NCBI GenBank assembly: GCA_023132135.1
Contig: JAGLYR010000131.1
Location: 1 to 13,779, forward strand
Reading direction: 5' to 3'
DNA: 13,779 nucleotides
Source of the DNA: Candidatus Eiseniibacteriota bacterium
GTDB lineage: Bacteria > Arandabacterota > Arandabacteria > JAGLYR01
This document shows, in pieces, positions 1 to 13,720 of this stretch. The number at the start of each line of letters is the position of its first letter. The first letter of the stretch is position 1. The position numbers and the translations under genes are program-made. The notes beneath the pieces are model-generated. The model was not told the DNA's origin. It was given only the letters and a program-made list of their open reading frames with translations, and searched no databases.

Positions 1-166
1 GGCGGCTCAATGTTAGCCCCGGGTGAAGCGAAGCGGAACCCGGGGGGAAGGAGAAGAGGAAGGGAAGATCATAGTGGTATGAGGTCGTCTTCTTGTCCCA
101 CGGTTCCGCTCCGCTCCACCGTGGGCTAAGTTGAGTCGCCCCCCATCCGGGGGGCTTACCGGCAAG
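1..166. repeat. Palindromic repeat cluster, copy A (plus-oriented unit, spacer, minus-oriented unit)
   Basis: Positions 1-47 are the 3' part of a plus-oriented unit, cut by the window edge. It contains a hairpin with arms CCCCGGGT / ACCCGGGG around a GAAGCGAAGCGGA-type loop. Positions 97-157 are a second unit in the opposite orientation, with arms CCCACGGT / ACCGTGGG, followed by a second hairpin with GGGGGG / CCCCCC arms. Read on its own strand, the second unit has the same order as the first: C-run hairpin, CTCAA, TTAGCCC, GAGCGGAGCGGA-type loop. Positions 67-157 match 13542-13632 with one mismatch. The short linker CTTACCGGCAAG (155-166) runs into the last codons of the neighbouring gene. 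No coding sequence of its own is credible here. Confidence 0.85.
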
Positions 167-2083: not shown

Positions 2084-2140
2084 TGTAGCCAGCGAAGTGG
2101 AAATCCGAGGTAACCGTGGGAAGAGGCCCGAGCCTATCCA

Positions 2141-2146
2141 AAGGAG
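2141..2146 (+). promoter_or_regulatory. Ribosome binding site fixing the C25 peptidase start
   Basis: AAGGAG with a 7-base spacer to the ATG at 2154. It rules out the in-frame GTG at 2097, which would add 19 charged residues ahead of the signal peptide. Confidence 0.8.
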
Positions 2147-2153
2147 TCGTCTC

Positions 2154-5100
2154 ATGAGAATCGCTCTATGCGTAGTCACCGGTCTGCTGTTCGCGGCCAC
2201 CGTTTGCCAGGCCGGAACAGTCGTTTTCGAAGAGAACCTCGAGACAGCCGGACTCACTATCGACCGGATGACGGACTCGTTTGTGGAAATCACCTATCGA
2301 CTTGACCGCGTGGACATCGAAGACTTCGACCTGGGCGACCGGGTGATGCAGCAGGTTTCCATCCCGGGAATTTTCCTCCCGAACGACGAGGGCGCGCCCA
2401 ACCTCCCCGGGATCGGGCGTCTTTTGGCGGTCCCCGAGGGCGCCACCGTTCAGTTGGATATCCTGTCGACCAGCACGCAGATCGTCGAGAACATTGACGT
2501 TCTCCCTGCACCGCCTATCCCCAGAGAAGACGACGATTCCCCCCTGACCTACGAGGAAGATCCTGCGATCTACTCGGTCGACGCTCTCTATCCGGTTCAG
2601 GCGGCACGAATCTCGGAAATCAAGAACATGCGGGGCGTGGATGTGGTCACCCTCGGCATCATGCCATTTCAGTACAATCCCGTCAGGCGGGAGCTCACCA
2701 TCTATTCGGAGATCAGCGTGCGGGTGAGCTTCCAGGGAGGAGCGGGTCGGTTTGGCGAAGACCATCTGCGCTCCCGCCACTGGGAACCCATCCTCCAGGC
2801 AAACCTCTTGAACTACGAATCGCTATCAGAGATGGATTTCCCAACGCCCGACTCCAGAGACAACGAATACGAGTACGTCATCATCGTGCCGGACGATCCC
2901 CTATACACCGCATGGGCCGACAGCATCAAGCAATGGCGGACCCTCCAGGGAATCGACACGGGTGTCTTCACCCTCACCGAGACAGGGGCCACCTACGGCG
3001 AAATCGAGAGCTGGGTCAACAACGCCTATGGAACATGGAGCACGCCGCCCGTGGCCATCCTGCTCCTGGCCGACTACGTCACCAATGGCGGGACGACCGG
3101 GATCACATCGCCTCTCTATAACTCCTACTGTGTATCCGACAACATTTACGGCGATGTTGACGGCGATCACCTTCCCGACATCGTGATGGCCCGGATGACG
3201 GCCACTCCCTCTACGATCGAGCGGCTCGTGACCAAGGCCATCAACTACGAACGGAACCCTCCGACGAATCCCGATTTCTACCAGAACCCCATCATGGCCT
3301 GCGGATGGCAGACGGAGCGATGGTTTACCATGTGCACCGAGATCATCTACGGCTTCCTGGCCAACGTGCACGGGAAAACACCCGTTCGCGAGTATGCGAT
3401 CTACGACGGGTATCCCGGCACCGTCTGGTCCACGAATTCCAATACCTACATGCTGCTGAACTACTTCGGACCCAGCGGACTCGGGTACATCCCGGCGACG
3501 CCCGAGCATCTGGACGACTGGGGCGGAAACGCCACGAGACTGAACAACGACATCAACTCCGGGGCCTTCATCCTCCAGCACCGGGACCACGGGGGCACGA
3601 CCGGCTGGGGCGAGCCGGACTATGATATCTATGATCTCGGGGGTCTCACGAACAACGACTTGCCTTTCGTCTTCTCCATCAACTGCCTGACGGGAATGTA
3701 CAACATGGGCGGCGACTGTTTTGTCGAGGCATTCCACAGGATGGAGCATGGCGCGCTGGGGCTCATCGGGGCCTCCGAGTCATCCTATTCTTTCGTGAAC
3801 GATACCTTCGTGTTCGGCACCTACGACTGCATGTGGCCGGAGTTCGACCCGGGCTACCCGACCGAGGGCCTGGCCACCGACGGCAGTCTGAGACCCGCCT
3901 TCGGAAATACCTCGGGCAAGTACTACCTCTCGACGTCCAGCTGGCCATCCAACCCCGACCGCAAGACCCTCACCTATCACCTTTTTCACGCGCACACCGA
4001 CGCGTTCCAGACTCTCTACTCCGAGGTGCCTCAGAACCTGACCGTGGATCACATGGAGGTCCTCCCCATCGGCGTGCCGAGCTTCGAGGTGACGGCGAAC
4101 CTGGGTTCTGTAGTCGCTCTGACCATTGACGGCGAGATCATCGGAGTCGGCGAGGGAACGGGGGGGCCGGTCGACATCCCCATCACTCCGGTGATGTTGC
4201 CGGGGGTCATGAGAGTGACCGTGACCAAGGCCAATTACTACCGGTACTCGCAGGATGTGCAGGTGATTGTGCCCGAGGGACCATTCCTGCTTCTCGATCA
4301 TAATGCGATGGACGATTCGGGCGGCGACGCCGACGGGATCGTGGACGTCGGCGAGCCGGTGGAGCTGGTCACGTTCCTCGAAAACCTTGGCTATGATCAG
4401 TCCACCAACACCGTCGGGGTACTGGAGAGTACCGGCGATGTGGTGTTCAGCGACGATACAGAGACATGGGGTGTGATCCCCTCGAACGAGACCCAGCCCT
4501 GTGACGACTCGTTCAAGTTCAATGTTGCACCCGGCACTCCGGACCAGACAGAGATCGAGTTCACCCTCAACGTGACCTGCGACGAGACAACCTTCGTCCA
4601 GGAATTCAGCTACGTTGTCGAGGCGCCCATCGTGGCCATGGTGAACTGGTGGGTCAACGATGATGCCGGTGGAGACGGGGACGGCCGGGCCGAGCCCGGG
4701 GAAACCGTGGATCTTGCCTTCCGCTTGAGCAACACGGGGCACGAGGATGCGGTGAACGTGACGGGCGTGCTCCAGTCATACTCCCATATGATCACTATCG
4801 ATCAGAACACGGCGTTTGTCTCCGCGGTGCTGGAATCGTGGGAAGCCGATCTCACCGGTTACACCGTGACGATCGATCCCGATTGCCCCGAGGAAACGAC
4901 CATAAACCTCCGCCTGAACATTTCCGCGAACTTCGGGTACCAGATCACGTTGCAATCGCCTCTCCCGGTCTCGCCTTTCTTTGACGAGTTCGAGGAGTTC
5001 CTGGGCTGGACCACCAGCGGCACGGCATCCACAGGCGACTGGTTGCAGGCGGACCCGGAGGGAACCATCTACAACAATGAGCCTTGCCAGCCGGAGGACG

Positions 5101-5846
5101 ACCACTCCCCGGCGCCCGGACGGCACTGCATGGTCACGGGACCCATGGCGGGTACCAGCGCCGGCACGTACGACGTGGATAACGGCAGCACCATTCTCAC
5201 CTCTCCGGTCTTCGACCTCTCGGGAGCGATCGGGGCAACGCTCGAATACTGGCGCTGGTACACCAACGACCTCGGTGAAGCGCCCGGCCAGGACTGGTGG
5301 ACGGTCGAGGTCTCCAGCGACGACGGCGCGAGCTGGACTCATTTGGAGCACACCCAGGAGAGCGCCAACTACTGGCAGAAGTTATCGTTCCAGCTGGAGG
5401 ACTACATCGGATTGACCGACCTGGTCCGCGTCCGCTTTACCGCCGCGGACGACGGCTCCCCTTCTCTGGTCGAAGCAGCTGTCGACGACATCCTTTTGTT
5501 CGCCATACGGGAGGATCCGACGGACGTTTCCGAAGAGGGGGACGTGGCCCGGGCGAGCCACGAGCTCATGCTCGCGCAGAACCGCCCGAACCCCTTCAAC
5601 CCTGTGACGGAGATCACGTACGGAATCCCCGCGGGATCCGCTCCTGCCCGGGTCGTGATGCATGTCTACGATCTGAGCGGCCGGAAGGTCACAACCCTTG
5701 TCGATACCAACCGGGGACCCGGAACACATCACGTGACCTGGGACGGGAGGGATCACAAGGGGGCCGAGGTCGCCAGCGGGGTCTACTTCTACCGGATTAC
5801 GTGGAACGGGGAGAGCGAGACCAGGCGAATGGTGCTGCTGAAGTAG
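2154..5846 (+). CDS. Secreted C25 (gingipain-type) cysteine peptidase with C-terminal sorting module
   Basis: 1230 residues. Residues 1-20 are a signal peptide (MRIALCVVTGLLFAATVCQA). Residues about 25-225 resemble the C25 propeptide. The catalytic domain spans about 238-620: DVDGDHLPDIVMAR (334-347) is the family's Asp-rich segment, QHRDHGG supplies His479, and SINCLTG supplies Cys511, 32 residues on as in gingipains. Residues about 625-705 fit the C25-associated Ig domain. Two similar Ig-like repeats follow, each starting with a DDxGGDxDG-type motif (719-820 and 836-935). Residues about 940-1118 form a jelly-roll/MAM-like module. Residues 1140-1230 are a FlgD-Ig/Por-type domain ending RRMVLLK. 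It is probably an exported, cell-surface or released endopeptidase, synthesised as a zymogen. Substrate preference cannot be read from sequence. It is the first gene of the cluster, 18 bases before the CapA-like gene. Confidence 0.93.
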   Translation: MRIALCVVTGLLFAATVCQAGTVVFEENLETAGLTIDRMTDSFVEITYRLDRVDIEDFDLGDRVMQQVSIPGIFLPNDEGAPNLPGIGRLLAVPEGATVQLDILSTSTQIVENIDVLPAPPIPREDDDSPLTYEEDPAIYSVDALYPVQAARISEIKNMRGVDVVTLGIMPFQYNPVRRELTIYSEISVRVSFQGGAGRFGEDHLRSRHWEPILQANLLNYESLSEMDFPTPDSRDNEYEYVIIVPDDPLYTAWADSIKQWRTLQGIDTGVFTLTETGATYGEIESWVNNAYGTWSTPPVAILLLADYVTNGGTTGITSPLYNSYCVSDNIYGDVDGDHLPDIVMARMTATPSTIERLVTKAINYERNPPTNPDFYQNPIMACGWQTERWFTMCTEIIYGFLANVHGKTPVREYAIYDGYPGTVWSTNSNTYMLLNYFGPSGLGYIPATPEHLDDWGGNATRLNNDINSGAFILQHRDHGGTTGWGEPDYDIYDLGGLTNNDLPFVFSINCLTGMYNMGGDCFVEAFHRMEHGALGLIGASESSYSFVNDTFVFGTYDCMWPEFDPGYPTEGLATDGSLRPAFGNTSGKYYLSTSSWPSNPDRKTLTYHLFHAHTDAFQTLYSEVPQNLTVDHMEVLPIGVPSFEVTANLGSVVALTIDGEIIGVGEGTGGPVDIPITPVMLPGVMRVTVTKANYYRYSQDVQVIVPEGPFLLLDHNAMDDSGGDADGIVDVGEPVELVTFLENLGYDQSTNTVGVLESTGDVVFSDDTETWGVIPSNETQPCDDSFKFNVAPGTPDQTEIEFTLNVTCDETTFVQEFSYVVEAPIVAMVNWWVNDDAGGDGDGRAEPGETVDLAFRLSNTGHEDAVNVTGVLQSYSHMITIDQNTAFVSAVLESWEADLTGYTVTIDPDCPEETTINLRLNISANFGYQITLQSPLPVSPFFDEFEEFLGWTTSGTASTGDWLQADPEGTIYNNEPCQPEDDHSPAPGRHCMVTGPMAGTSAGTYDVDNGSTILTSPVFDLSGAIGATLEYWRWYTNDLGEAPGQDWWTVEVSSDDGASWTHLEHTQESANYWQKLSFQLEDYIGLTDLVRVRFTAADDGSPSLVEAAVDDILLFAIREDPTDVSEEGDVARASHELMLAQNRPNPFNPVTEITYGIPAGSAPARVVMHVYDLSGRKVTTLVDTNRGPGTHHVTWDGRDHKGAEVASGVYFYRITWNGESETRRMVLLK

Positions 5847-5864
5847 GGGCGGCGGAGAATGGAC

Positions 5865-8800
5865 ATGGGCAGTCCAACCCAGGCTCGTCGGACCTTCGTG
5901 ATTCTGGTTCTGGGTGTTCTGTGGACCCTTCCGCCGAGTCCTGCCGGAGCGGACTTCGCACCTGGCGGCAAAGGCGTTGTGATCGAGGACTTCGAGTCGG
6001 GCGGTGTTACGCTCGGCGGATATCCCGACCAGAACCAGCAACCCGACGATTGGGAGGTGACCGGCGCCAACGTCTACGAGGGCGCCTATGCCCTGCGCAT
6101 CTACGGCAACTGCTGGAAGACACAGGAGATTAATCCCTGCACAATCGATGCTGAAACCGTCTGGCAGGTCGCCGTCCATGTTGAGGACAGGGGCGAAATG
6201 AGCGCCTTCGGCGTGAGCGACGGGGCCAACGAGCTGTTCTACGTTGTTGCCGGCACCGAGCTGCCGGCGCCCGCGAAATGGTGGACGGTCTACCAGGGGA
6301 GCTATCCCCTCTACGAATGGCATGCGTACCATCTGCCCATCGGGGAGGACTGGTACGCCACGTACGGCTACTATCCTGTCATCAGCAACCTGATCTACGT
6401 CAACGATGACGATGCCGCCCAAGCGGTCGTCACCCTCTTCGATGCCATCCTGGACATCACCGGGGATCTGCCCGTAGCGCCCGTGGTCACGGCCGGCTAC
6501 AGCATCATCGAAATCCAGAAGATCAAGAGCGATCTCTACCGGGCGGATATCCAGTTCTACGGCGACGTGGTCGATCCCGATTCCGATAGTCACGACTTCC
6601 TCTGGGATTTCGGCGACAGCTCCTTCAGCATCGAACAGAACCCCAGGCATGAGTTCCTCGTACATGCCGACTACACCTACGCCGTGGGCTTCCATGCCGT
6701 CGACCCCGACGGCATGGTGGGTGTCGACACCTGCCATGTGAGCGTCGAGTCGGGGCCGGGTGAGTTGCCCATTACGGTCAACTTCGTCGGCGACGTGATG
6801 ACGGCCCGTACGTACGAGAATCCGGGCGGCATCATAGAGACCTACGGTGTGGAGTACATCTTCACTCCCACGCTGCCGATTCTTGGGCAGGCAGCCGACG
6901 TGAGTGTGGCCAATCTTGAGTGTACGTACACAGACCAGGGCACGCCCCACCCCACCAAGTTCTACACCTTCCGCAGCCGGCCCGAGAACATAGCGGGTGC
7001 GGCCTACGCCGGCATCGACATCGTCACCCTCGCCAACAATCACATCCTGGACTACGGCCTGGAGGGGATGCTGCAGACCGAGTCCGTGCTCGACGCGGCG
7101 GGGATCCTGCACTCGGGATGCGGCATGAACAACACCTGCGCGCTCTTGCCCACATTCTGGACGGAACGCGGGTTGCGAATCGCGTTCCTCGGCCAGTGCA
7201 ACTTCACTGAGCGCGAGTGGAACCACCAACCTTTCCCGGACGCGGGCGCCAACAAACCCGGGTTCGCCTACTTGATACCGAAGAACCTCGAGAAGGCCAT
7301 CACCGCAACCCGTTCCCAGGCCGATGTGGTCATCCTGCAGCTGCACAGCGGCATCGAGTACGAGCCCGAACCGCCGCCGGGCAAACCGGGCGACGGCCGG
7401 CCCGCCGTGGAGGCAGCCGAGCTCGGGACCGCGAACCCTGTTTCCCGCTTCAAGAACGAGCCGACCTTGAGCGAGCGCGAGCTCCGGCGCCTGGCCCTGG
7501 ACCTGGGAGCCGACATAGTCATCAATCATCATCCCCACGTATTGCAGGGTTTCGAATCGCACGGGGGCAAGCTAATCGCCCACAGCCTCGGCAACTTCAT
7601 CATGGATCTGTCCTACGTCGAGACACTGCCCACGATGGTCCTGACTCTCGAGATCGACGCGGGCGGGATCAGCGGATACTACATCGTGCCGGCCTGGATC
7701 GACGACTACATCACGCAGCCCGCCACGGGCCGCCTGGGCCGCGAGATCCTGGACCGTATGGCCGACTACTCGCGGCCCATGGGCGCTCTGGTGGCGGTGG
7801 ATCCGACAGCCATGACGGCAAGAGTCTATCCGGACCCTGCAGCTGCCGCGCCCGAGCAGAACCGGTATGGAATATCGGCCTCCATGCGGGTGGAGGATGG
7901 CTATGCCATCAGCGAACCGGTGGAGCTGGTTGGTCCCGGAACCCTGTCCCGGATCATCTCGGTAACGGGAGATGGCCTGGGCGCCTACGAGATCTGCTGG
8001 GGATGCGAGATCCTGTGGCACGGTGATTTCGAGGCGGAGGGTGCCACCCTCTGGGATACGAACACGAGCGACGAGTGGCTGGATGATACCGAGGCGTACT
8101 CCGGGCAGCGGTCGCTGGCGCTGCGGCGTGACGAGTACGATACGCAGGATGTGGGCACGGATCTGGAGAAACATCTGCCCTCCGATCCGGGCAAACGGCA
8201 CTCCTTCACAGGGTACATGAAGGGGAACAACGCGGCGGGGGCCAACATCCTGGGCCGGTTCTACTCATCGCGCTACGGTGGGACCGTGCTCGGGGACACG
8301 GAGATCGGGCCGGAGCTCCACGGCACGAGCGACTGGTATGGCCAGTGGCAGAACATGGACACCCCCGCCAACGGATACTACTTCGAGGTGCGTTGCACTC
8401 TGTCCCCGCCGACCTCCGGTGAGGGAAGAGCATGGTTCGACAACCTCAGGTTCATAGAGTGGGAAACCTGGCAGAGCGGCGCGCCGGGGCTCCAGATCGA
8501 TCACCCCAACAACTACCGTTTCGTGCAAATCCGGACCCCCGACACCGGTGTGACCACGATTGATGTTACCTACGAGGAGACAAGCTACAGCACCTTGACC
8601 GCTACCGTGCCGGATCGGCCGCGGGAAGAAGCGCGGGGATGCCTGCGACAGAATTATCCGAACCCGTTCAATCCCACCACGACCATAGTCCTGGACGCGC
8701 CGGCTGGGGACGGTATGGTACGCGCCAGCTTGACCCTCTATGATGTGCGAGGCCGCAAGGTCGTGACCCTGTTCGCTGGAGCCCTGCCCTGCGGCAGCCA

Positions 8801-8921
8801 AAGGGAGTTCGTCTGGGACGGCACCGACAGCAAGGGCGCGGCTGTAGCGAGCGGAGTCTACTTCTGCCGGTTCACATGGAACGACCGGAGCGAGACCAGG
8901 CGGATGGTGCTGCTGAAATAA
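5865..8921 (+). CDS. Secreted CapA-like metallophosphoesterase with PKD, jelly-roll and C-terminal sorting modules
   Basis: 1018 residues. A signal peptide ends near residue 29 (PSPAGA). Residues about 38-200 look like a beta-sandwich binding module. Residues 215-295 are a PKD domain (DFLWDFGD at 244-251). Residues about 303-640 are a CapA/PgsA-type calcineurin-fold domain with the expected metal and phosphate motifs: GDVM (309-312), NLE (350-352), NNH (391-393), LHSG with His494, HHPH (555-558) and HSLGNF (573-578). An extra Pro/Gly-rich stretch (501-535) lies between the His494 and HHPH motifs. Residues about 715-865 form a jelly-roll module; 925-1018 are a FlgD-Ig/Por-type domain. CapA proteins act in poly-gamma-glutamate capsule assembly in Gram-positives; an exported, modular version is more likely a surface enzyme of unknown substrate. 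The ATG at 5865 is preferred because GGAG sits 7 bases upstream; the ATG at 5859 is only 1 base from it. Confidence 0.9.
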   Translation: MGSPTQARRTFVILVLGVLWTLPPSPAGADFAPGGKGVVIEDFESGGVTLGGYPDQNQQPDDWEVTGANVYEGAYALRIYGNCWKTQEINPCTIDAETVWQVAVHVEDRGEMSAFGVSDGANELFYVVAGTELPAPAKWWTVYQGSYPLYEWHAYHLPIGEDWYATYGYYPVISNLIYVNDDDAAQAVVTLFDAILDITGDLPVAPVVTAGYSIIEIQKIKSDLYRADIQFYGDVVDPDSDSHDFLWDFGDSSFSIEQNPRHEFLVHADYTYAVGFHAVDPDGMVGVDTCHVSVESGPGELPITVNFVGDVMTARTYENPGGIIETYGVEYIFTPTLPILGQAADVSVANLECTYTDQGTPHPTKFYTFRSRPENIAGAAYAGIDIVTLANNHILDYGLEGMLQTESVLDAAGILHSGCGMNNTCALLPTFWTERGLRIAFLGQCNFTEREWNHQPFPDAGANKPGFAYLIPKNLEKAITATRSQADVVILQLHSGIEYEPEPPPGKPGDGRPAVEAAELGTANPVSRFKNEPTLSERELRRLALDLGADIVINHHPHVLQGFESHGGKLIAHSLGNFIMDLSYVETLPTMVLTLEIDAGGISGYYIVPAWIDDYITQPATGRLGREILDRMADYSRPMGALVAVDPTAMTARVYPDPAAAAPEQNRYGISASMRVEDGYAISEPVELVGPGTLSRIISVTGDGLGAYEICWGCEILWHGDFEAEGATLWDTNTSDEWLDDTEAYSGQRSLALRRDEYDTQDVGTDLEKHLPSDPGKRHSFTGYMKGNNAAGANILGRFYSSRYGGTVLGDTEIGPELHGTSDWYGQWQNMDTPANGYYFEVRCTLSPPTSGEGRAWFDNLRFIEWETWQSGAPGLQIDHPNNYRFVQIRTPDTGVTTIDVTYEETSYSTLTATVPDRPREEARGCLRQNYPNPFNPTTTIVLDAPAGDGMVRASLTLYDVRGRKVVTLFAGALPCGSQREFVWDGTDSKGAAVASGVYFCRFTWNDRSETRRMVLLK

Positions 8922-10687: not shown

Positions 10688-10706
10688 TCGTGTTCCCGGA
10701 TAGAGG

Positions 10707-10796
10707 CTTGCCGGCGAGTGAAAGCAGTGGGGGGTTGAAGCCCCCGGAGGGGGCGGCTCAATGTTAGCCCCGGGTGGAGCGAAGCGGAACCCGGGG
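10707..10796 (+). repeat. Palindromic repeat, copy B (single plus-oriented unit)
   Basis: It begins with the linker CTTGCCGGCGAG and a TGAAAGCAG stretch, as in copy C. The two-hairpin unit follows at 10738-10796: GCCCCC-GGA-GGGGGC, CTCAATGTTAGC, then CCCCGGGT / ACCCGGGG arms around an AGCGAAGCGGA loop. Unlike copies A and C there is no inverted partner within the following 100 bases. It sits in the 320-base convergent gap between two genes. Confidence 0.85.
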
Positions 10797-10939: not shown

Positions 10940-13321
10940 CTACCTGACTCTCACGATTTTCCCGCTATAGACGCGCGCTCCAGCCTCCGCGCGGTAGAAG
11001 TACATCCCCGGCGCGGGCTCGCAACCGCCTGCAAGCTTCCCGCTCCACCGGACAGTCCACGTTCCGCCGGACGTTGCGCGTCCCTCGGACGTCCACACCC
11101 GCCGTCCCAGCAGATTGTAGACACTGAGTGTAACGGGAACCTCGCCGTCCAGGCCATCGAAGCTGAAGGCCACTCCCTCACGCCACGGGTTGGGCCAGGC
11201 ATCACACCGGATTCCTGCAACCCTCGGCTCGGGCGCGGTGGCCGTGACCTCCAGCAGCATGCATTCGTACAGACCGCCCTCCGTGCAGGCGAAAATGGCG
11301 AGCGTGTAGATGTAGGGATCGTAGCGCATCCGGTGGATCGTCCGGCTCGGCAGCCCGGTGTTGAGAGTACCGGTGATTGTGCCGTCCTCGCGCGCGCGGT
11401 AGATCCCGTCCATCATGGTGCCAATGAACAGGAAAACTCCATGACCATCTGCCGTGTAGTCCTGGAGAAGATCCGTCGGAAGGAATATCGTGCTGAGCCG
11501 CATCCAGCTCGCACCGAGATCGTCCGACCGGTACAGGCCGTCCGAGAATGTCCCCATCCCCTCGACAAGGTAAACGAAGGGCGTGTTCGACGGACCTGCC
11601 TGCGGCCACATGGATTCGATGTCCCTCACCGGGAGCTCCGGCACATCCACCGCCAATCCCCAGTGCATCCCGGCGTCGGTCGTCCGATACAGCCCGCGGT
11701 CCGTTCCTACCATCAGGATATTGGTGTCTGACGGATGGAACCATATGCAGCGCACCGTGTCCGGAAGGATCCACGAGCCCAGCTCAAACCAGTCCGTCAT
11801 GTTGTCCGACGCAAACAACCCGTCATGGTTGCCACAGAAAAAGAGATCCGGGACCAAGGGGTGTTCCTCGATAAAGAAGGGCCTCGCGCACCACCAGCTG
11901 GCAACCCATTCCTGGGACTCGTCGCGCCAGTGGTAGATGCCGTCGGACTCGCACTGCCCGGAACCTTCCGAGTACGCGCAGTAGAGATCGCCGAGGTCAT
12001 TCTCGTACCAGGTCACGGTACCCTCGATACGCGCCGTGGCGACCACGTCCACGTCGCCGTCGTTGTCGAGGTCGCCCGTAGTGATACCCATCGAGCCGCC
12101 GGCCGCATCATCGATCACATGCTTCTGCCAGCTGAGGCCGGACTCCCCGCGCGCCTTGTACCAGGCAACCACCCCGGCCGCCCTCCCGGCCGCAACGATG
12201 TCGGTCCGGCCGTCGCCGTCAAGATCTCCGGCGGAGATCGGGCAGGCTTCTTCCAGGTTACTGTCTATCACGACGCGCGTCCACATGCCTCCCACCTCGT
12301 CGGGCGGCAGGTAGACGACGACCCAACCGGCTTCCTTGGCCGTGACGGCAACCTCAGCCATCCCGTCGCCCACAAGGTCCCCGCACCACACGTTGACGGG
12401 CCCATCGATGTCGTCATCGATGAAGTGCTTTGTCCATGACATCGGATCTCCCGGAGCTCCTTGCTCGTACCACACGACATGGTCCGCGTCGCGACCGGCG
12501 GCAACGATGTCCAGGTCGCCATCCCCATCCACATCGTACGCGAAGACCCCCTTGACTCCCTCGAGGCTGTCGTCAACGCAGTACCCGGCCCACAAACCGC
12601 CGGGAATGGGAGGCGCCTCGTACCACATCACGGTGTTGACGTCCATTCCCCCGGCAACGATGTCCGGGCGGTCGTCGTCGTTGATGTCTGCAATGAAGAC
12701 ACCCCGCGGGCCGCCCAGGAAACCAACGTGATGCCTGATCCAGGAGATCGGCTGGCTGAAGGGCACATTCTCGTACCACACGATTTCGCTCTCGTCGCGG
12801 ATCGCAACGGCAAGGTCCCGGTGGCCGTCTCCGTTCAGATCGCCTATCGCTACCTCCCGGGCGCCTGCCACGGGCGATTCAACTTCCCACCGGTTCCAGA
12901 ACGGACTCACAGTCTCAGGCAGCGGATTCTCATACCAGACAACACAGTGGCCGGGATCCATGGCCGTCACTACAATGTCGGCATAGCCACTGTGATCCAG
13001 ATCGCCGACGGCCACACCGGTGGCTCCCCCCAGGAGCAACTGATTGACGGGATGCTTCACCCATCCCGATCCCTCGAGGTTCAGGATGGAGTAGGCCCCA
13101 AGGCCGGGGTATTCCAACCCCATGCCTTGCCACCCGGCGGGGCCGTAGCCGCGGAAGACCCCCACCTCGGTTCCGGCGTATCCGGTTTCACCATCGAACC
13201 GGATCTCGTACGTGGGGTGGTCCGTTGTATCAATCGGGACATGATACCATTCGTAGGCAACAGAAGTGGAGACGGGCAGGAGCAGCAGCGCCAGGCCAGT
13301 GACAAGAGGCAGGATTCTCAT
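10940..13321 (-). CDS. Secreted FG-GAP beta-propeller / BNR-repeat protein with C-terminal sorting module
   Basis: 793 residues. Residues 1-22 are a signal peptide (MRILPLVTGLALLLLPVSTS, then VA). Seven FG-GAP/VCBS repeats with a period of 51-54 residues start at about 106, 160, 211, 262, 314, 365 and 416; each has a GDxxxDGxxDIVV-type calcium-loop motif, and all but one are followed by a WYE-like strand. Blade 5 (GDLVGDGMAEVAV) lacks several of the acidic ligands. This count fits one closed seven-bladed propeller. Residues about 480-690 carry BNR/Ycf48-like motifs (GLYRTTDAGMHW 543-554, GLYRSDDLGASW 595-606), suggesting a second propeller. Residues about 705-793 are a FlgD-Ig-like domain (AWPNPW, YNLLGRRVW, GMYFYRA) ending KIVRVR. 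It is probably a surface or released binding protein; the ligand is unknown. The start at 13321 is set by GGAGGT 6 bases upstream; upstream in-frame starts at 13339 and 13405 would bury the signal peptide. Confidence 0.9.
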   Translation of the reverse strand: MRILPLVTGLALLLLPVSTSVAYEWYHVPIDTTDHPTYEIRFDGETGYAGTEVGVFRGYGPAGWQGMGLEYPGLGAYSILNLEGSGWVKHPVNQLLLGGATGVAVGDLDHSGYADIVVTAMDPGHCVVWYENPLPETVSPFWNRWEVESPVAGAREVAIGDLNGDGHRDLAVAIRDESEIVWYENVPFSQPISWIRHHVGFLGGPRGVFIADINDDDRPDIVAGGMDVNTVMWYEAPPIPGGLWAGYCVDDSLEGVKGVFAYDVDGDGDLDIVAAGRDADHVVWYEQGAPGDPMSWTKHFIDDDIDGPVNVWCGDLVGDGMAEVAVTAKEAGWVVVYLPPDEVGGMWTRVVIDSNLEEACPISAGDLDGDGRTDIVAAGRAAGVVAWYKARGESGLSWQKHVIDDAAGGSMGITTGDLDNDGDVDVVATARIEGTVTWYENDLGDLYCAYSEGSGQCESDGIYHWRDESQEWVASWWCARPFFIEEHPLVPDLFFCGNHDGLFASDNMTDWFELGSWILPDTVRCIWFHPSDTNILMVGTDRGLYRTTDAGMHWGLAVDVPELPVRDIESMWPQAGPSNTPFVYLVEGMGTFSDGLYRSDDLGASWMRLSTIFLPTDLLQDYTADGHGVFLFIGTMMDGIYRAREDGTITGTLNTGLPSRTIHRMRYDPYIYTLAIFACTEGGLYECMLLEVTATAPEPRVAGIRCDAWPNPWREGVAFSFDGLDGEVPVTLSVYNLLGRRVWTSEGRATSGGTWTVRWSGKLAGGCEPAPGMYFYRAEAGARVYSGKIVRVR

Positions 13322-13327
13322 GAGAAC

Positions 13328-13333
13328 ACCTCC
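13328..13333 (-). promoter_or_regulatory. Ribosome binding site of the propeller gene
   Basis: GGAGGT on the minus strand with a 6-base spacer to the ATG at 13321. This decides the start against an in-frame extension of 28 residues from 13405, whose own AGGAG abuts the start codon directly. Confidence 0.8.
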
Positions 13334-13482
13334 GTTCATCTTGGGGCGGTTGTTGTACGGGTTTCGATCCATTACATCATGCAGCAATGGAGTCCCTTGC
13401 ATCACCTCCTCTCAGATAGCACAGCTCTACGCGGGAGCGAAACGCACTCTCCCCCTTATTCAGATTTCGCAGCGGGCGGCAA

Positions 13483-13507: not shown

Positions 13508-13720
13508 TGCGGGAACCCGCGGAAGAAGAAGGGGAAGGGGAGATCATAATGGTATGAGGTCGTCTTCTTGTCCCACGGTTCCGCTCCGCTCCACCGTGGG
13601 CTAAGTTGAGTCGCCCCCCATCCGGGGGGCTTGCGGGCAAGTGAAAGCAGTGTGGGTTAAAGCCCCCGGAGGGGGCGGCTCAATGCTAGCCCCGCGTGGA
13701 ACGAAGTGGAACCCGGGGGG
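13508..13720. repeat. Palindromic repeat cluster, copy C (truncated unit, spacer, minus unit, linker, plus unit)
   Basis: 13508-13521 (GCGGGAACCCGCGG) looks like the last bases of a plus-oriented unit. The purine-rich spacer and a minus-oriented unit follow; 13542-13632 equals 67-157 with one mismatch (A at 13549 against G at 74). The linker CTTGCGGGCAAG plus GTGAAAGCAG parallels copy B. A plus-oriented unit lies at 13660-13718, with some loop and arm changes (CCCCGCGT / ACCCGGGG). Copies A and C therefore show overlapping registers of one longer repeating pattern. The cluster begins about 187 bases upstream of the propeller gene. Confidence 0.85.

Follow-up and report, generated by a model that had tools for sequence, protein, structure and literature searches.

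The repeat units of the window

The DNA analyzed here (hereafter the window, at its full length of 13,779 nt) is the entire contig C37 of a 3.4-Mb MAG (G000) of 345 contigs, and the five two-hairpin units announced in a preliminary description of this stretch are all present in it at the places claimed. We scored the units with R1, a covariance model of the linker plus hairpin 2, to which part the model was limited because a first full-unit alignment had misaligned hairpin 1 between the two subtypes, A and B. The features are the following:

1–45, plus strand: A-type unit truncated by the contig start (R1 match 2–45, 75.5 bits), with the end of hairpin 1, the linker GGCTCAATGTTAG and hairpin 2 (17–45), mini-hairpin GCGAAGC at 28–34
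46–96: 51-nt A-B spacer between the stems, 95% conserved in its counterpart at 13521–13571
97–155, minus strand: B-type unit, with hairpin 2 (97–125), linker and hairpin 1 (138–155), mini-hairpin GCGGAGC at 108–114, minus strand
10740–10796, plus strand: lone A-type unit between convergent genes, with hairpin 1 (10740–10754, GGA loop), linker and hairpin 2 (10768–10796), mini-hairpin GCGAAGC at 10779–10785
13512–13571: probable remnant, the 3' half of an A unit (GGAACCCG..., 13512–13522), followed by the conserved A-B spacer
13572–13630, minus strand: B-type unit, with hairpin 2 (13572–13600) and hairpin 1 (13613–13630)
13631–13661: B-to-A connector (GGGCAAGTGAAAGCA...), also found at C50 and related to 10705–10739
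13662–13718, plus strand: A-type unit, with hairpin 1 (13662–13676) and hairpin 2 (13690–13718)

Position 1 of the contig falls within the right arm of the first hairpin of the unit at 1–45, an edge to be expected there because repeats break assemblies, so that the unit formerly drawn at 1–47 does exist, albeit incomplete. The order and orientation of the units were confirmed, with the amendment that the unit at 97–157 lies on the minus strand like that at 13572–13632, both being of subtype B (arms CCCACGGT/ACCGTGGG); the other three units of the window are of subtype A (arms CCCCGGGT/ACCCGGGG). The B unit at 97–155 adjoins the stop codon of the minus-strand ORF 156–1937. The head-to-head spacer, for its part, is indeed conserved, but measures 51 nt instead of the 30 proposed; and since positions 46–166 and 13521–13641 are copies with 95% identity, the conservation of the spacer is wider than those 30 nt. 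The loop, which had been described as always of the AGCGnAGCGGA type, is typically so, the unit at 13662–13718 being the exception in that it carries the mini-hairpin ACGAAGT (with an A-T pair, versus GCGAAGC), along with one C-C mismatch in stem 2.

The consensus of the A type reads GCCCCCGGAGGGGGC-GGCTCAATGTTAG-CCCCGGGT-GRA-GCGAAGC-GGA-ACCCGGGG, and that of the B type GCCCCCCGGATGGGGGGC-GACTCAACTTAG-CCCACGGT-GGA-GCGGAGC-GGA-ACCGTGGG, with a hairpin 1 loop of GGA in A and GGAT in B. An Rfam scan of the window gave 0 matches. As a separate observation, the window also encodes large proteins (2097–5846, 5859–8921 and 10940–13405) with a similar FlgD/T9SS-like C-terminal motif (NPFNPxTxI...GVYFYRxxW), in the tails of two of which there is a common 113-nt repeat at 79%.

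Abundance and structure of the units in the MAG

With a 70-nt A copy as the query we obtained 40 matches in the MAG (best E 1e-30), with a query of the A-B spacer plus the B unit 9 strong matches, one of them partial, and with R1 35 matches at E <= 0.01, which amounts to some 35 units plus fragments; the units are thus not few, and their recurrence far exceeds chance. Nor are they confined to assembly joints, 17 of 30 examined matches of the 70-nt query being located more than 200 nt from any contig end. Among the eight genomes of the phylum compared, the units occur in this MAG only, the other seven having 0 R1 matches. Inverted A-B pairs with the conserved 51-nt spacer are present at C37, C50, C52 and C186, and such a pair can fold as a whole into one long hairpin. 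Thirteen of 16 sampled units were clearly intergenic, of which loci 5 lie between convergent, 5 between codirectional and 3 between divergent genes.

Half-units resembling the remnant at 13512–13522 occur elsewhere in the MAG as well: at C135, C68 and C79 A units are truncated, with nothing left but the 3' arm from about GGAACCC on, and at C301 and C204 all the hairpins of a unit are deleted, which forms may reflect cleavage or slippage at a hairpin. A uniform breakpoint rule for the 3' halves starting with GGAACCC was discarded, as C79 differs. Beside many units (L004, L005, L009, L010, L018, L019, L062) stand short tandem arrays with a period of about 7 nt (AGTCCCTAGTCCGTAGTCC, GTGCTTCGTGCTTCGTGC, CTCGCACTCGCC), to which heptamer-like arrays the units are joined by the connector CAAGGAxAAGGGCATTxGA, and which we take to resemble the cyanobacterial STRR heptamers.

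The preliminary description had noticed that the arms of stem 2 differ and yet stay complementary, and the compensatory change proves genuine, present both within the MAG and across phyla. In a MAFFT alignment of 17 units from the MAG, 97.6% of the cells pair and three of the ten pairs change on both sides, the covariation score being attained by none of 500 shuffles; moreover, a one-sided intermediate persists, with C99 and C198 carrying the arms CCCACGGT/ACCGGGGG, and C104 the arms CCCCCGGT/ACCGGGGG of the completed second change. In the alignment across seven genomes (A4, 74 distinct rows, which were themselves fitted to the model), changes on both sides affect 7 of the 10 pairs, and pairing holds in 99.3% of the cells, compared with only 25–58% for slid structures used as a control.

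In the "AGCGnAGCGGA" loop we recognize d(GCGNAGC), a DNA mini-hairpin of great stability. Its middle base N differs between genomes, all four bases being represented; the forms GCGAAGC, GCGGAGC and ACGAAGT each close a GNA triloop with a stem of two base pairs, and the change from GCGAAGC to ACGAAGT is likewise compensatory. The GRA and GGA between the mini-hairpin and the outer stem constitute a 3x3 internal loop of purines. When folded with DNA parameters, the unit strand came out slightly more favorable in energy than the complementary strand; standard parameters probably omit the special stability of GNA and GNNA caps. Such mini-hairpins and their GNNA-looped relatives are extraordinarily stable in DNA, with a Tm of 78 C for GCGAAGC (PMC4686876), and the loop sequence of the units was not found in the literature that we searched.

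Units and Y1 transposase genes in other phyla

A scan of 84,980 species genomes with the pattern TWAGCCCNNGGTGRAGCGRAGCGGAACC matched an unclassified MAG, bin.378 (many copies), one Planctomycetota MAG, two Acidobacteriota, one Hydrogenedentota and one Chlamydiae MAG. These six genomes (G008, G009, G010, G011, G012 and G013, with 62, 9, 16, 82, 14 and 67 R1 units, respectively) follow a common plan of a C-run/G-run hairpin, a linker, TTAGCCC, a capped hairpin 2 and often a third hairpin; and inverted pairs of units also occur in G011, G012 and G013. Because the six were chosen by a pattern containing the loop, the conservation of the loop in this R1 set is partly built in, from which selection the gene-anchored tests described below are free. 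The foot of the units reads TTAG or CTAG, rarely GTAG, and because it departs from GT[AG]G we did not class the units as canonical GTAG REPs.

All six genomes possess full-length Y1_Tnp genes. R1 units of at least 24 bits were found at 12 of 30 Y1 loci, for which the genome density predicts about 0.5 (P about 1e-14), and were mostly in plus orientation upstream and in minus orientation downstream. In G009, G010, G011 and G013 a Y1 gene is flanked by the units of its own genome, as is one in G008 with a variant loop. Where readable, the flanked proteins have the HUH motif DH[VI]H, WQ and Y-x3-Q-x2-HH (YIxxQxxHH); at L144 no ORF bearing the motifs was recovered. Across 20 aligned proteins both HUH histidines, WQ, the Tyr, the Gln and HH are invariant. 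The subclass 1.2 of TnpAY1 is defined by DH[IV]H, WQ and Y---Q--HH, is listed as having no REP, is generally without typical IS ends and comes mostly from Cyanobacteria and Bacteroidetes (Quentin et al., 2018; PMC6006769). By these motifs the flanked genes appear to be subclass-1.2-like, and their products, of about 148–150 aa, have the length of that subclass. The NCBIfam label for them is IS200/IS605 family transposase, and their nearest solved structures are TnpAs of the IS608 and ISDra2 types, of which the IS608 TnpA is without WQ and HH. The recovered subclass 1.2 paralogues are mostly 35–48% identical to the first one aligned, and near-identical tnpA copies, by which an IS200/IS605 element would be recognized, were found for L132 and L147 only.

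In the contigs of our MAG (96% complete) neither PF01797 nor the profile of the 20 proteins detected a subclass 1.2 gene, the one stray match having an E of 0.14, and none was found in the seven other genomes of the phylum; the partner is therefore deduced from other phyla. The search for a RAYT in the same genome, which the preliminary description had recommended, was accordingly answered in part: no such gene is flanked by units in this assembly, whereas RAYT-type Y1 genes are so flanked in other genomes. Overlooked in that description were the d(GCGNAGC) mini-hairpin, the spread across phyla and the candidate partner, an enzyme of the IS200-like subclass 1.2 instead of the classical RAYT of GTAG REPs.

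The MAG does contain other Y1 sequences. At C86 (L033 751–1740; L075) there is a class 2.4-like RAYT gene with two inverted copies of a REP, GTAGGGGCGACCC-GGT-GGGTCGCCC, lying in frame between the HUH and Tyr motifs, and with further copies around the gene, which is a second, GTAG-type REP system in the same MAG. In addition, C145 (L031 1384–1653) and C157 (L032 867–1232) hold damaged pieces, very similar in sequence, of one class 2 RAYT type (HVTQRG), of which no intact copy was found in the MAG. These remnants were considered as the partner and dropped, since elsewhere the R1 units sit at subclass 1.2 genes.

The tests anchored on the genes gave the following picture. Inverted repeats scoring above every shuffle, with a median of 101, bracket 28 of 29 subclass 1.2 genes; class 2 genes have inverted flanks too, although weaker (median 45). 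When loops of 3–4 nt on stems of at least 5 bp were counted in flanks oriented toward the gene, those of subclass 1.2 genes contained 81 of the GNA/GNNA form against 1 of the TNC/TNNC form, the corresponding counts in the controls being 4 versus 4 for class 2 flanks and 7 versus 9 for distant DNA. In a replication set of 27 evenly drawn Planctomycetota genomes, selected by the protein profile alone, 23 of 27 genes were within inverted repeats, and the loops numbered 70 versus 9 (distant DNA, 9 versus 15). On a Persicobacter (Bacteroidota) plasmid, the gene is accompanied on each side by three hairpins, which have TAG feet and GTTA/GAAA caps; a more divergent copy in Bernardetia fits the triple-hairpin plan poorly.

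The flanks are also strand-polar, AG preceding the long stems on the 5' side in 45 of 118 cases on the unit strand versus 8 of 118 on the other. Toward the start codon one usually meets hairpin 1 about 90 nt away, then hairpin 2, with its NTAG foot, about 60 nt away and hairpin 3 about 20 nt away, and the downstream side mirrors this arrangement. The gene flanks usually have three hairpins, versus the two of the dispersed units of the MAG. Several outer hairpins of the subclass 1.2 arrays (L120–L149) have a CNGA foot, which is the foot reported for class 3 TnpA, and a shared ancestry of subclass 1.2 and class 3 is possible.

A REP-like family with a candidate enzyme

We thus observe a multi-copy, covarying and strand-polar family in inverted pairs, which in other genomes is located at subclass 1.2 genes. 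The REP/BIME-like reading of the preliminary description is supported by the copy number, the inverted pairs, the covariation and the Y1 partner elsewhere; and we hold with good confidence that the units are REP/BIME-type, REPIN-like repeats mobilized as single-stranded DNA by a TnpAY1 enzyme of subclass 1.2, repeat and transposase probably forming an unrecognized mobile or domesticated system. Because no Y1 gene is flanked by them in this MAG, we class the units as REP-like only.

We infer the binding and movement of the units by the enzyme, the role of the foot and the past or unassembled gene of the MAG, and would envisage them, on the model of IS608 and RAYT biochemistry (PMC8266576), as follows. 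The recognition signal would be a folded single strand composed of hairpin 1 and of hairpin 2 with its d(GCGNAGC) cap, joined by a short linker that has (T/C)TAG at its end, two inverted units making up a miniature non-autonomous element. The subclass 1.2 TnpA would bind the folded unit on one strand of single-stranded DNA, either the lagging-strand template or an excised strand, and, with the NTAG foot as a guide like those of IS608 and the RAYTs, would cleave and rejoin beside the unit, whereby pairs of units could move or amplify during the single-stranded phase; the capped loop may keep the unit folded and shield it from nucleases. By this analogy the units would be mobile; no pair of insertion and empty site was observed, the MAG being the sole genome of its genus, family and order compared. 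As to the MAG itself, either the gene was lost, in which event the repeats are orphaned, or it falls into a gap of the assembly, a plausible fate for a 0.5-kb gene enclosed by inverted repeats.

Alternatively, the units might be MITEs of an ordinary IS200-like IS, that is, leftover end hairpins instead of the REPs of a domesticated transposase. Subclass 1.2 is indeed closest to the class 1.1 TnpA of IS200/IS605, and a gene with flanking hairpins can be read as an IS; but the units far outnumber the genes (e.g., 67 R1 matches in G013 versus 8 Y1 matches of all classes), and the recovered genes, as noted above, are mostly divergent paralogues. The ends are moreover inverted here, unlike those of IS608, which are not known to be inverted repeats. 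Quentin et al. found no IS behavior in subclass 1.2, and altogether we regard this explanation as unlikely.

Quite unlikely, in turn, is the proposal that the units are RNA elements—terminators, stabilizers of mRNA 3' ends or attenuators—that spread passively, with an incidental link to the transposase. REPs can, as a class, function as RNA elements (PMC3733652), and most units are intergenic, 97–155 being at a stop codon and 10740–10796 between convergent genes. Nevertheless, hairpin 2 is followed by GGAAGG, GGACAG or AACAGG instead of a T-run, the intergenic loci include divergent and codirectional as well as convergent gene pairs, the C(GNA)G caps are familiar chiefly as a fold of DNA, and no Rfam family matched; nor does this proposal explain why inverted units surround genes for a single-strand-DNA transposase.

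That the MAG's own class 2 RAYTs, whose genes or remnants at C145, C157 and C86 are the only Y1 sequences found there, are the enzymes acting on the units is very unlikely, since C145 and C157 are short, damaged, of one gene type and without units nearby, C86 has its own, different GTAG-type REP, and the R1 units of the other six genomes are at subclass 1.2 genes, with a single weak match (L191, 22 bits) among the class 2 loci.

A system of REP units with a subclass 1.2 enzyme would resemble the REP/BIME and REPIN of E. coli, Pseudomonas and Stenotrophomonas in its short, intergenic, many-copied palindromes with a TAG-ending foot and a Y1 HUH partner, as well as in the inverted pairs, the conserved head-to-head spacers and the subtypes within a genome (A/B like Y/Z). 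From those GTAG REPs, whose RAYT groups 2 and 3 correspond to TnpAY1 2.2 and 2.5, it differs in the NTAG foot, the two or three hairpins per unit, the class 1 partner, the spread across phyla and the GNA/GNNA mini-hairpin caps with a purine 3x3 internal loop. The flanked genes agree with subclass 1.2 in its motifs and its length of about 150 aa, and depart from what is reported for it in standing inside inverted hairpin arrays in Planctomycetota, Acidobacteriota, Hydrogenedentota, Chlamydiae and the unclassified MAG. Class 3 TnpAY1, with atypical structures, a CnGA foot and about 600 copies in Solibacter, is similar in that, in Planctomycetes and Acidobacteria, its Y1 gene likewise stands among non-GTAG structures, and a CNGA foot recurs here on some outer hairpins; it is set apart by the protein motif, YV[VI]xEQ versus the YIxxQxxHH of our partner. 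With IS200/IS605 (class 1.1; IS608, ISDra2) the system would share a homologous enzyme fold and strand-specific subterminal hairpins; it differs in the WQ and Y---Q--HH motifs, the inverted multi-hairpin flanks and the few divergent genes versus many units.

We consider it likely that subclass 1.2 provides the enzyme for a REP system of its own, which is widespread, occurs in at least five bacterial phyla and has left behind orphan repeats such as those of the window; in this system the inverted arrays of 2–3 hairpins with strand-specific GNA/GNNA caps would be a conserved recognition shape while the stem sequences vary freely. In the literature searched we found no report of REPs for subclass 1.2; many tyrosine transposases with flanking repeats have been described in R. 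baltica, which were not classified as subclass 1.2 (Di Nocera et al.; PMC3733652). The units would accordingly be a candidate substrate for a class of single-strand-DNA enzymes that had none, whose function could be tested with small synthetic oligonucleotides. They also suggest that natural selection has found a use for the d(GCGNAGC) mini-hairpin, so far mostly a subject of oligonucleotide chemistry, and that recognition in mobile DNA can follow a code based on shape and not on sequence, of which code the GNA/GNNA signature may offer a simple rule for spotting such REPs in uncultivated phyla.
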